Made by a program: the position numbers and the translations under genes. The notes under the pieces are model-generated. The model was not told where the DNA came from, did no database searches, and saw only the letters and a list, made by a program, of their open reading frames with translations. Of a stretch of 64,000 nt of DNA, positions 28,679 through 52,433 are shown in pieces. Source of the stretch: Brevibacillus laterosporus DSM 25 (GTDB taxonomy: Bacteria > Bacillota > Bacilli > Brevibacillales > Brevibacillaceae); the NCBI RefSeq assembly GCF_002706795.1, contig NZ_CP017705.1:3881501-3945500 (forward strand), read 5' to 3'. How positions within the stretch are numbered: the first letter of the stretch is position 1; each line of letters begins with the position of its first letter.

Positions 28679-28907
28679 AAATGGATAGCTCCCTTCTTTC
28701 TATCGTGAAAATACATTTTAAATCTATTAAAAAACGAACATTTTTTGTGTGAAAACGCTTAAATGTTAATGAATAATTGCTGGTTTGCAAATTTCTGTTT
28801 TCTTCTTTCCAAAGTCATGTTAGGATAAAGAAGACAACAGGAAGACACGTTATAGTATGCGTTTCTTCCATAGATTTTATAACCCTTCTTTTGCGAATGA
28901 AGGTAGT

Positions 28908-29098
28908 AGGGAGAGACTGCGAGTATTATCTGTGCAGCGCCGAAGGAGCAAACCAGAAATGGTGAATCTCTCAGGCAAAAGAACCTCTACTGGACGCACC
29001 TCTGGAGAGAGCTTTTTCATAGAAGCCACCAAAGGGGAAACCTGCTTATGGGCAGGGTAACTCTCAGGTACCGGGACAGAGAACTTGGAGAGCGGGCG
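28908..29098 (+). ncRNA. tandem glycine riboswitch
   Basis: Two glycine aptamers in series. First: GAGAGACTGC, GCGCCGAAGGAGCAAACC, CTCTCAGGCAAAAGAAC. Second begins GGAGAGAGC at 29004, has GCCACCAAAGGGGAAACC, GGTAACTCTCAGGTACCGGG and ends near ACAGAG. Directly upstream of gcvT; in Bacillus subtilis such a switch turns on gcv when glycine is abundant. Confidence 0.95.
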
Positions 29099-40464: not shown

Positions 40465-41115
40465 TCACTGATTTAATTCAGTAAATACTACCAATCTTTT
40501 TGCATGTTCTTGTGTTTTTTTATTAAACTTTCCAGAACAAGTAATAAGATTCAGATTGGATGTACCTGTTTCGCCGAAAATTCTCTCCAAGGGAGCCTCT
40601 TTTGTTTTAAAGGCTGTTACCTCTTTGACTACATAAATAAGCTGATGATCGTTTGAATCTGAGACGATAACGTGATCACCATGCTTCAATTTTTTCAAAT
40701 GATAGAAGATTGCTGGACCAGTATAATGATCAAAATGGCCTGCAATAACGGCATTCCCTTTTTCACCTGGTTTGGTCCAGGGAGTTAAGATACCTACTTT
40801 ATCAAATGACTTTGGAACATCCATATTCCCTTCCACTGTTATACCTACTGTTTCTATTGCTGTATCCAACCCAATAGAAGGAATTTGCAGACGATTTGGT
40901 ATGAAGCTTATTGTATTCATTTCCGGTTTTGTCTGTGAATTCGGAGAGGGAATAGCTTTAGATTGTTTCGTGTGTAATTGTTTTTCTTGTACTTGAGGAA
41001 AGGGTTGATCAATAGGTAGAGGAGTGGATATATTTGGCTTTTTTTCTGGACTAGCAGAGTTTGAACATCCAGAAAGTATACATATAAGTAAAGTAAGGAA
41101 AATTATTCTTCTCAT
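40465..41115 (-). CDS. class F sortase-like lipoprotein
   Basis: 216 residues. A lipoprotein signal with LSGC (Cys17) rather than the usual transmembrane anchor, a Pro/Gln/Lys-rich linker to about residue 65, then a sortase barrel: RLQIPSIGLDTAIETVG, AVIAGHFDHYTGPAIF (His127), LNLITCSGKF (Cys193) and AKRLVVF (Arg207), the full His-Cys-Arg triad. Sortases cleave a sorting signal between Thr and Gly and transfer the protein to an amine. Immediately upstream on the same strand is a tiny secreted protein ending in PKTGMGGASN, a likely substrate. Confidence 0.87.
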   Translation of the reverse strand: MRRIIFLTLLICILSGCSNSASPEKKPNISTPLPIDQPFPQVQEKQLHTKQSKAIPSPNSQTKPEMNTISFIPNRLQIPSIGLDTAIETVGITVEGNMDVPKSFDKVGILTPWTKPGEKGNAVIAGHFDHYTGPAIFYHLKKLKHGDHVIVSDSNDHQLIYVVKEVTAFKTKEAPLERIFGETGTSNLNLITCSGKFNKKTQEHAKRLVVFTELNQ

Positions 41116-41228
41116 CTTACATACCTCTTATTCATAACTTCTTTCCTATTTGGTTCATTAATAAAATTCCATCAGGGATCGTTCAGAATCTGAGAGTTCC
41201 CTGATGGAAACACAAAATGGTTTATTGA

Positions 41229-41441
41229 TTAGTTACTTGCTCCACCCATGCCTGTTTTAGGCATACCTTTGATATGGAATTTGTGATGTTTTTTATGAGA
41301 CATTGTTTTCGCTTTGTGCTTTTTATGGGACATTGTTTTTGCCTTGTGATGTTTCTTATGGTGCCCTTCTTCCATAGCGAATACTGAAGCATTAGAGAAC
41401 ACAAAACAAATGGCAAGTGTAGCAGCTAATAATTTTTTCAT
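41229..41441 (-). CDS. small secreted His/Lys-rich protein with PKTG tail
   Basis: 70 residues from the ATG at 41441, with AAAGGACG before it. Signal peptide 1-21 (KKLLAATLAICFVFSNASVF, then A). The mature part is about half His and Lys and contains a duplicated block KAKTMSHKKH. It ends in FHIKGMPKTGMGGASN: a sortase-like PKTG motif with no hydrophobic helix or basic tail after it, quite unlike ordinary LPXTG proteins. The sortase-like gene lies 113 bases downstream on the same strand. His/Lys richness suggests binding of metal or polyanions. A shared transcript and sortase-substrate relation are inferred. Confidence 0.75.
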   Translation of the reverse strand: MKKLLAATLAICFVFSNASVFAMEEGHHKKHHKAKTMSHKKHKAKTMSHKKHHKFHIKGMPKTGMGGASN

Positions 41442-41759: not shown

Positions 41760-42854
41760 ATGAAAAAGGTATTTTGGATTCTTGTAGCTTTGGTCATTAT
41801 TTTCATAAATAATACAAAAGAGGTCAAAGCAGAGCATGCAGAAATTGAGAGTTTGTTGCATAGCATGTTTAAAGAACGTTCGAACGCAATGATCACCAAG
41901 GAGTATGAAGCAATAAAACATCATTATCTTTCTAATCATAAAAGTAGTCGATCTGCCCTGGAACATGAAAGGGATCGAAGTACTTATATTCATACATGGG
42001 GGTCAAAAAGAAATCTATCATTTATTGATGCTGAAAGTAAAATTCAGATTGTACATATCAAACGCATAGGTACGAAAGCAAAGGTTTTTTTAAAACAATC
42101 GCAATTAATCACGTACCAGCATCACGGTATTCCATTCAATCCGCAAAAATTTGGGATTGGAACACGACATCTCTTGACTCTAGAGCAAAAAGATAGGAAA
42201 TGGCACATTGTAAAAGAATGGTACCTTGATCCTTTGGAGGAAAACCCCAATTTAATTCCTGTATCAAAAAAAGCAGTTACCAAAGAAGAGTTAGTCGTAT
42301 ATAAGCAAAGAAAGAATAGAACAAGATATAACCGTGAAAAAGCTGTTTCTTATGCGGAAAAGTATGCTGGAGCAGCTTCCATGTCAGGAAACAAACACCG
42401 ATACAATCCGAAATACGTAGATTATACCTACGAAGGAGGGGATTGTACCAATTTCACCTCTCAAGTTCTGGGCGATCGGCTAGAGGGTGGAGGCTTACCT
42501 ATGCATGGAAGCTGGTTTTATAAAAAAGGTGGGAGCGTTGCTTGGATTAGAACCGATTCCTTATATCAATTTCTTATTCATAGCGGGTACGGTAAGCTAA
42601 TTACGCGAGGAACCTATGAAGAGGTAGCTAAACCGAACAAAAAATTCCCTCAAGGTGCACTTTCCCATCTTCAACCAGGTGATTTAATTGCTTATGAACT
42701 TGAAGGGAATATTGACCATTTCTCCATCGTAACTGCTAGGGATGATCAGGGCTATGTATTAGTAAATTCTCATACTGCTGATCGTTATCATGTACCGTGG
42801 GATTTAGGATGGGATAAGAAAACAAAATTTTATCTGATCCATATTAGAGATTAA
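41760..42854 (+). CDS. secreted Amidase_6 domain protein
   Basis: 364 residues. Signal peptide (KKVFWILVALVIIFINNTKE). The N-terminal half (30-190) is an unassigned basic domain; residues about 195-364 are an Amidase_6 (PF12671-like) domain: YNREKAVSYAEKYAGAASMS, GGDCTNFTSQVL with the likely catalytic Cys, HGSWFYKKGGSVAWIRTDSL, LQPGDLIAYE and DHFSIVTARDDQGYVLVNSH with the His. Papain-like fold, probably a cell-wall amidase or peptidase. GTAGGGG precedes the ATG. It is followed by a flippase and an NlpC/P60 gene, all on the same strand. Confidence 0.82.
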   Translation: MKKVFWILVALVIIFINNTKEVKAEHAEIESLLHSMFKERSNAMITKEYEAIKHHYLSNHKSSRSALEHERDRSTYIHTWGSKRNLSFIDAESKIQIVHIKRIGTKAKVFLKQSQLITYQHHGIPFNPQKFGIGTRHLLTLEQKDRKWHIVKEWYLDPLEENPNLIPVSKKAVTKEELVVYKQRKNRTRYNREKAVSYAEKYAGAASMSGNKHRYNPKYVDYTYEGGDCTNFTSQVLGDRLEGGGLPMHGSWFYKKGGSVAWIRTDSLYQFLIHSGYGKLITRGTYEEVAKPNKKFPQGALSHLQPGDLIAYELEGNIDHFSIVTARDDQGYVLVNSHTADRYHVPWDLGWDKKTKFYLIHIRD

Positions 42855-44395: not shown

Positions 44396-44507
44396 TGTAT
44401 TCAGTTTGCCGTGATTTGAAAGTATTTTTATGTTGGAAAGCTTTTACTAATGGAAAGTATCGATTACTTTGGTAGGATTGTGTGAGGAAAGAAGGGAGGA
44501 TATAGGT

Positions 44508-45104
44508 ATGGCTTCAAGAATAAAACTCAGCTCAATCCTAACAAAGTCCGTGTTTATATGTTCCATTGGTCTTCTTTTTACCTGTGGCACTGCTTTTGCA
44601 ACGGCGACAGATGAAAAAAAGGATAAAGGAACAACAGATAGTAGCTCTACTATAACTGTATCGAAACCAAAGTGGGAAGATACGGCCGATCATATTATTT
44701 CTTTGGGGAAAACCTATATGGGAACTCCTTATGTTTATGGTGCAGAACGTTTTCAAGATACAACATTTGATTGTTCCTCTTATGTTCAGTACCTGTATGG
44801 TAAATTTGGCATTTCACTAGGGTGGCACGCTAGAGAGCAAGCTAAACAGGGTACATGGATTCCATTTGATCAAATTCAAAAGGGAGATCTTTTATTTTTT
44901 GCAGATGAAAAATTCCCTAATGAAACGGGTCTAAATAAGGTTCGACATGTTGGAATCTACTTGGGAAATGGAAAAATCCTGCACACCTATGAAGAGGGAA
45001 TAGGTGTAATTATTAGTGATTTCCGAAATGATAAACTTGAGGAAGACTATTGGTACAACTACTTCCTTTTTGCAAAAAGGGTTATTCCTGAAACAACCAA
45101 ATAG
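44508..45104 (+). CDS. secreted NlpC/P60 peptidase
   Basis: 198 residues from the ATG at 44508 (GGGAGG nine bases upstream); the open frame begins at 44469 but lacks a ribosome binding site. Signal peptide to about residue 32 (GLLFTCGTAFA). The NlpC/P60 domain: DTTFDCSSYVQYLYGKFGIS with the catalytic Cys, KGDLLFFADEKF, KVRHVGIYLGNGKILHTYEE with the His and a polar third residue. Cleaves D-gamma-glutamyl-meso-diaminopimelate linkages in peptidoglycan stems, by family. No SH3 or LysM targeting domain is present. Confidence 0.9.
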   Translation: MASRIKLSSILTKSVFICSIGLLFTCGTAFATATDEKKDKGTTDSSSTITVSKPKWEDTADHIISLGKTYMGTPYVYGAERFQDTTFDCSSYVQYLYGKFGISLGWHAREQAKQGTWIPFDQIQKGDLLFFADEKFPNETGLNKVRHVGIYLGNGKILHTYEEGIGVIISDFRNDKLEEDYWYNYFLFAKRVIPETTK

Positions 45105-52322: not shown

Positions 52323-52433
52323 CTCTTCTCATCTTTCAAGCACATGCTTGCTGGATTTGGCACAGCACTCTAAATACGAGTCCGCTGCCGAGGCATCAAA
52401 GGGCCAGTCCCTCCGCCTCTCTTGATAAGAAGG
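52323..52433 (-). ncRNA. SAM-I riboswitch (S-box)
   Basis: Minus strand: CTTATCAAGAGAGGCGGAGG, GACTGGCCC, GATGCCTCGGCAGC, then GTGCTGTGCCAAATCCAGC and a closing GATGAGAAG that pairs with CTTCTTATC. All core elements of the S-box are present. It precedes a terminator and the metT-like gene. Confidence 0.95.

Follow-up and report, generated by a model that had tools for sequence, protein, structure and literature searches.

A conserved ten-residue tail beside class F-like sortases as a probable sorting signal without a membrane anchor

Sortase substrates are described as carrying a C-terminal helix, with integration into the membrane preceding their attachment (PMC10924467). For class F sortases, an mBio paper of 2026 states that physiological roles remain unknown; it mentions, as possible substrates, two sortase neighbours with a signal peptide, a helix and a basic end, and sets them aside for having no pentapeptide motif (PMC13251363). 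In the titles and the opening lines of abstracts of the open-access literature we found no report of a sortase substrate or sorting signal that lacks the helix; papers behind subscription may differ. Here we describe a class F-like sortase of Brevibacillus laterosporus DSM 25 whose neighbouring gene encodes a small exported protein with an LPXTG-like motif and no helix, and we consider how the two might work together.

The pair lies in a 64,000-nt stretch of DNA, which we refer to as the window, in a host genome (G000) of 5.4 Mb on a single contig. Both genes are on the minus strand, at the coordinates reported in a preliminary description of this DNA: the small-protein gene occupies 41229-41441, including the stop codon, and the sortase gene, at 40465-41115, begins 113 nt downstream of it. 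The small protein (P0002), recognized from its open reading frame and its relatives, has 70 residues. A Sec signal peptide (residues 1-22, MKK...SVFA; 41376-41441) was assigned by inspection, and is followed by a His/Lys-rich middle (residues 23-59; 41265-41375) with 12 Lys and 10 His among its 37 residues and two KAKTMSHKKH blocks encoded by a 30-nt DNA repeat with 87% identity. The protein closes with the tail PKTGMGGASN (residues 61-70; 41232-41261), which we picked out by its motif and by profile searches, and its C-terminus reads GMPKTGMGGASN. An LPXTG-like motif is thus present near the C-terminus, as MPKTG, but only GMGGASN follows PKT where a hydrophobic helix would be expected, and the protein ends in ASN rather than in a basic tail. 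The preliminary description of an exported protein of this length and ending, with nothing hydrophobic or basic after PKTG, is therefore borne out by the sequence. No curated Pfam or NCBIfam family matches P0002 above its cut-off, and Gram_pos_anchor (PF00746) is not among its matches at E<=1. The signal peptide also contains a Cys at position 12 (codon 41406-41408), as it does in 34 of the 36 unique small proteins that we collected. We considered this residue as a lipobox Cys and rejected the idea because in many Brevibacillus members the preceding residue is Ile, Leu or Val, and because just 11 residues lie N-terminal to the Cys.

The neighbouring enzyme (P0001, 216 residues) was assigned from family profiles, an alignment and a predicted structure. 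It scores 86.1 bits against the Pfam Sortase family (PF04203; cut-off 26.6) and, marginally above the cut-off of 20, 20.1 bits against the lipoprotein signal PF08139; the lipobox of the enzyme is LSGC, with Cys17 (41065-41076). His127 (40735-40737), Cys193 (40537-40539) and Arg207 (40495-40497) are invariant across the 13 sequences of the sortase alignment A2. The complete triad and the lipobox noted beforehand both stand. The best NCBIfam subfamily is class F (NF033748; 124.9 bits, E 2e-36), with class E second among the classes listed at 41.8 bits; since the class F score falls below the curated cut-off of 166 bits, we call the enzyme class F-like. Its AlphaFold model has a confident core, with block means of 73-98 from residue 71 onward, and every PDB match among the 50 that Foldseek listed is a sortase, at probability 1.00. 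As modelled, P0001 is thus a sortase with the sortase beta-barrel fold.

A profile search finds one sortase in the host genome, and PF00746 has no match there above its cut-off, with five weak matches below it. The DNA pattern for PxTGxGG occurs four times: in the small-protein gene and in three frames that we take for chance, one of 49 codons, one made of Gly/Cys repeats and one whose motif is interrupted by a stop. With one sortase and no good rival by anchor or motif, the small protein is the sole good candidate substrate found in this genome. Near the pair lie genes for an Amidase_6 protein (41760-42854, plus strand) and an NlpC/P60 protein (44469-45104, plus strand), and elsewhere the window contains two neighbouring glycine riboswitch aptamers (28898-29081, plus strand) and a SAM riboswitch (52326-52431, minus strand).

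We searched for the pair in 59 related genomes and in 196 Paenibacillaceae genomes, and applied a tail profile to a class-wide sample of 398 genomes. A sortase match of some kind (E<=0.001) is found in 22 of the 59 relatives, and a close sortase, of at least 198 bits, in 16 (the next-best match has 136.5 bits). The small-protein profile matches the same 16 genomes, at their sortase loci; two weak partial matches, at E 5.3e-4 and 7.8e-4, lie elsewhere among the relatives (in G028 and G020). A tail-only profile of 15 columns, made solely from helix-less tails, likewise matches these 16 genomes (E<=5.5e-4), and its next match, in G048 (E 0.0016), is a 471-aa frame adjoining a broken sortase. Among the Paenibacillaceae, the sortase is present in 31 of 196 genomes at E<=1e-25 and the tail in the same 31 at E<=0.0021, as a comparison of the two sets confirms. 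At that cut-off 31 of the 32 tail matches adjoin the sortase, the other being a second, unlinked protein (L197 in G447), and the sortase-less genomes have no tail, the next match standing at E 0.022. By coordinates, the tail protein adjoins the sortase in each of the 47 genomes (16 plus 31), counts that are not independent since the genomes are related. Many of the tails in the profile derive from the very genomes scanned; what the tail scan adds is that no tail occurs in sortase-less genomes and that strong matches are almost never found elsewhere.

The full-length small-protein profile (A3) matches a slightly different set of 31 Paenibacillaceae genomes, 29 of them shared with the sortase set. 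It misses the two genomes with large partner proteins, G317 and G366, and adds G414 and G464, which have no sortase at the cut-off. In G414 the small gene is decayed, with an early frame stop and a stop in the tail region (L207), and two queries found no sortase remnant in its 3.2-kb locus; in G464 the match is weak and partial, in a 58-aa frame. Weak small-protein matches away from a sortase also occur across the class sample (G066, G118, G143, G241, G300, G020 and G026), and at the three such loci that were read (L220-L222) there is no tail. The preliminary description had asked whether the pair recurs, and it does, in 16 of 59 relatives and 31 of 196 Paenibacillaceae genomes. Because it recurs, we reject a chance motif at the end of a random short frame. 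Such an artefact would suit a low-complexity protein with no curated family above cut-off, but recurrence, co-occurrence with the sortase and synonymous codon change together make it extremely improbable.

The tail is better conserved than the rest of the small protein. Thirty distinct DNA sequences encode PKTG[MFY]GGAS, with synonymous changes at all eight constant codons. Mean pairwise identity in an alignment of 15 sequences (A1) is 88% for the tail, 61% for the middle and 54% for the signal peptide; in the 18 more diverse sequences of A3 the corresponding values are 80%, 40% and 42%. All 36 unique small proteins carry [ML]P[KSR][TS]GxGG[ATI]S and end within one to four residues of it. The bodies to which this tail is joined vary. 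In 34 of the 36 the middle, roughly cut, is Lys/His-rich, with a K+R+H fraction of 0.36-0.59, and in the other two, from Aneurinibacillus, it is Gly/Gln-rich, with fractions of 0.10 and 0.15. Two large Paenibacillaceae partners with Gly-rich linkers (L178 and L180) end in MPRTGEGGASEWTD and MPQTGGGGASEWTD, respectively; the L180 protein, with 25.7 bits, exceeds the CBM9 family cut-off of 23.4, and the L178 protein is CBM9-like by eye. In another family, G479 (L292) has a 242-aa frame, DUF4397-like by eye, that ends in NLPKTGLGGASEIR, and its sortase, with 132.8 bits to the A2 profile, begins 1 nt past the stop of that frame. Two sortase genomes have an additional, unlinked tail protein: one is the L197 protein mentioned above, and the other (L213, ending in MPKTGLGGASEIEE) occurs in G203 in addition to the linked Gly/Gln-rich partner of that genome (L130).

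This variety of bodies bears on two other readings of the small protein. The proposal that metal binding is its function does not extend to its relatives: the same tail is found on Gly/Gln-rich, CBM9-like and DUF4397-like partners, and we reject metal binding as a general function because some same-tail partners are Gly/Gln-rich. Binding of metal by the Lys/His-rich body is possible as a property not common to all partners. The small size of the protein, its strict linkage and its co-occurrence with the sortase would also fit a decoy, inhibitor or chaperone that sits in the sortase active site and is no substrate at all. However, the CBM9-like and DUF4397-like bodies and the two unlinked proteins that share the tail are easier to reconcile with a tag, and the host genome contains no other candidate substrate that we could find for a decoy to compete with, so we regard this reading as very unlikely.

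The same core motif is found beside related sortases in proteins of ordinary construction. The sortase profile led to 80 named loci, of which, on reading, 21 have a helix-less partner, 45 a helix-bearing one and 14 no adjoining partner. The 21 helix-less loci are all the Brevibacillus, Aneurinibacillus, Paenibacillus and Cohnella loci among the 80, and three of them have PKSG in place of PKTG. The 45 helix-bearing partners combine a PxTGxG motif with a helix and a basic end, most being proteins of about 445 aa with MPxTGxGG; 44 come from Bacilli (e.g. Bacillaceae and Exiguobacterium) and one from a Taylorbacteria bin. The partner at L024 matches DUF4397 at 168.6 bits. In the class-wide sample the tail profile matches 40 of 398 genomes at E<=0.01, and the seven matches read outside the helix-less families (L287 and L289-L294) comprise six helix types and L292; in the proteins of L289 and L290, which look similar to that of L292, a helix and a basic tail come after the motif. 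A further match outside the helix-less families, in G306, is a 40-aa frame. Some details of these partners are worth recording. Upstream of the sortase at the loci L054-L111 is a gene for an exported protein of about 445 aa, which has two repeats and carries PxTGxGG, a helix and a basic tail; the copy at L057 matches no Pfam family above cut-off and stays below the cut-off of NCBIfam GVDTG_CTERM. A 213-aa frame at L066 (minus strand) ends in MPQTGMGGTSNDGWFKNLWNSITSFLFN, in which an amphipathic-looking end, with no clear helix, comes after the motif.

Recurrence of the pair, conservation of the tail, its presence on unrelated bodies and a motif common to the helix-bearing partners of related sortases together make it very probable that the tail is a sorting signal that is portable and is used with no membrane anchor. 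The shorter sorting signal proposed in the preliminary description is supported by the comparison. Conservation of GxGG[AT]S past the predicted cut suggests that the enzyme also reads the leaving side of its substrate, and such reading might stand in for the holding function of the helix.

The predicted anchoring of the enzyme itself varies among relatives. The lipobox, helix and start-codon calls given here follow simple rules of our own, in place of SignalP and TMHMM. Among 108 non-redundant sortases, a lipobox is found in 42 of the 52 with a helix-less partner, in 8 of the 45 with a helix-bearing partner and in none of the 11 without a partner. The ten exceptions with helix-less partners also have no lipobox by eye, and one of them, L016, resembles a plain cleavable signal peptide. 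In the non-lipoprotein sortases L089, L096, L097, L105, L107 and L112-L115, several of which have no partner nearby, LAGY is found where lipoprotein sortases have LxGC, as though Tyr had taken the place of the lipobox Cys. A first tree of these enzymes left out 49 loci (37 near-duplicates, 11 that failed the domain pattern and one of low score), and a second, with a wider domain pattern, left out 42 (41 near-duplicates and L293). The second tree requires 3 changes of helix state and 10 of the lipobox, compared with 1 and 6 on the smaller first tree. The best tree has three helix-less groups, which would imply separate origins of the helix-less state, but a single origin is not rejected when all 52 helix-less rows are kept in one group (p-AU 0.486, or 0.469 without L292). 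Since a single helix-less group is not rejected, portability of the tail rests on the unrelated bodies.

Part of the preliminary description proposed that the lipid on the enzyme may replace the membrane anchor that the substrate lacks, an idea that is compatible with a helix-less sorting signal. The raw counts show the expected trend, with a lipobox in 42 of 52 against 8 of 45. They also show that the replacement is not a rule: ten sortases with helix-less partners lack the lipobox and eight of the helix type have one, and the helix-less pair at L292, on a long branch of unsure placement, has none while its neighbours L289 and L290 do. There is one independent contrast between helix and lipobox states on well supported branches and there are three on all branches (one on the first tree), with the lipobox direction over contrasts averaging 0.4 agreeing and 0.1 opposite; at most three contrasts are too few for a test of the link. 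A specific exchange of anchors therefore seems to us rather doubtful. With ten of 52 lacking a lipobox and so few contrasts, the lipid anchor of the enzyme is common but apparently not needed.

Between the two genes of the window lies a terminator-like hairpin (41167-41209, minus strand), located by a repeat search, with 21-nt arms that are 86% complementary and are followed by TTTTATT. Using a score cut-off of 10, set after a first survey whose lowest score was 10, we find such a hairpin in each of the 36 helix-less pairs tested (shuffles: 4 of 180) and in 21 of the 40 helix-bearing pairs (shuffles: 3 of 200). Its likely effect is to leave the substrate in large excess over the enzyme. An excess of this kind would also suit an enzyme that cuts the tail and whose acyl intermediate is then resolved either by water, which would set a trimmed peptide free, or by the substrate's own Lys side chains, which would yield cross-linked chains. 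The middle of the small protein offers 12 Lys per 37 residues for such a reaction, and no part of the substrate keeps it near lipid II. This reading accounts less well for the two Gly/Gln-rich partners, which have just 4 and 6 Lys in the middle, and for the CBM9-like and DUF4397-like partners, which on reading are not Lys-rich; related sortases, moreover, adjoin proteins with ordinary wall-sorting signals. We consider processing or polymerisation in place of wall sorting unlikely.

We think it probable, from the sequences, that the two genes form an enzyme-substrate pair in which the last ten residues are the whole sorting signal and the sortase cuts and transfers its substrate with no need of a substrate helix. 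The small protein would be exported by Sec and lose its signal peptide, with PKTGMGGASN as the entire signal. A membrane-held sortase, anchored by lipid here and by other N-termini in some relatives, would capture the tail at the translocon exit or from the wall space, cut at the predicted position between T63 and G64, by analogy with known sortases, and transfer the protein to an amine, most likely that of the peptidoglycan cross-bridge. The hairpin after the first gene would keep the sortase message low relative to that of the substrate, and the Lys/His-rich body would probably act as a polycation on the wall. Both cleavage and wall attachment of the small protein are what we infer from sequence, and the standard teaching that membrane integration comes before sorting (PMC10924467) counts against sorting without a helix.

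A broader proposal, which we hold tentatively and with somewhat less than even confidence, is that the class F-like sortases of Brevibacillus, Aneurinibacillus, Paenibacillus and Cohnella act on freely secreted proteins through a portable ten-residue tag, PxTGxGG[AT]S plus a few residues. If freely secreted substrates were sorted by such a short tag, retention of the substrate in the membrane would be no general need of sorting in cells. Tagged peptides rich in Lys may even be linked to one another besides being attached to the wall. The pair provides a class F-like sortase with a defined and linked candidate substrate, no other having been found in this single-sortase genome. The tag can be tested in vitro, with KGMPKTGMGGASN as the tail peptide spanning the motif, and nature supplies candidate substrates that share the motif with and without the helix, the DUF4397-like proteins being an example. 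If the proposal is true, it would offer a short native tag by which soluble proteins could be attached to Gram-positive walls.

Comparison with known systems places the pair among described sortases and sets it apart from each of them. Class C sortases cross-link pilins into chains; they resemble P0001 in being sortases with a linked substrate gene, but we noticed no pilin-like partner here, and polymerisation enters only as the rival reading discussed above. Class F sortases (NF033748) are the best-scoring named subfamily and share the catalytic residues and the sortase fold, whereas P0001 differs in its score below the class cut-off, its lipobox and its helix-less partner. The helix-bearing partners of Bacillaceae and Exiguobacterium, both the two-repeat proteins of about 445 aa and the DUF4397 type, are likewise encoded upstream of the sortase and have the PxTGxGG motif, but their C-termini include the helix and the basic tail, and their bodies are unrelated. 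Finally, the small proteins share with the LPXTG sorting signal (PF00746) a C-terminal P-x-T-G core on an exported protein with a sortase gene adjoining. They differ in having neither hydrophobic helix nor basic tail: in contrast to the PF00746 signal, the motif continues as xGG[ATI]S and the protein stops one to four residues on, in every one of the 36 unique small proteins.
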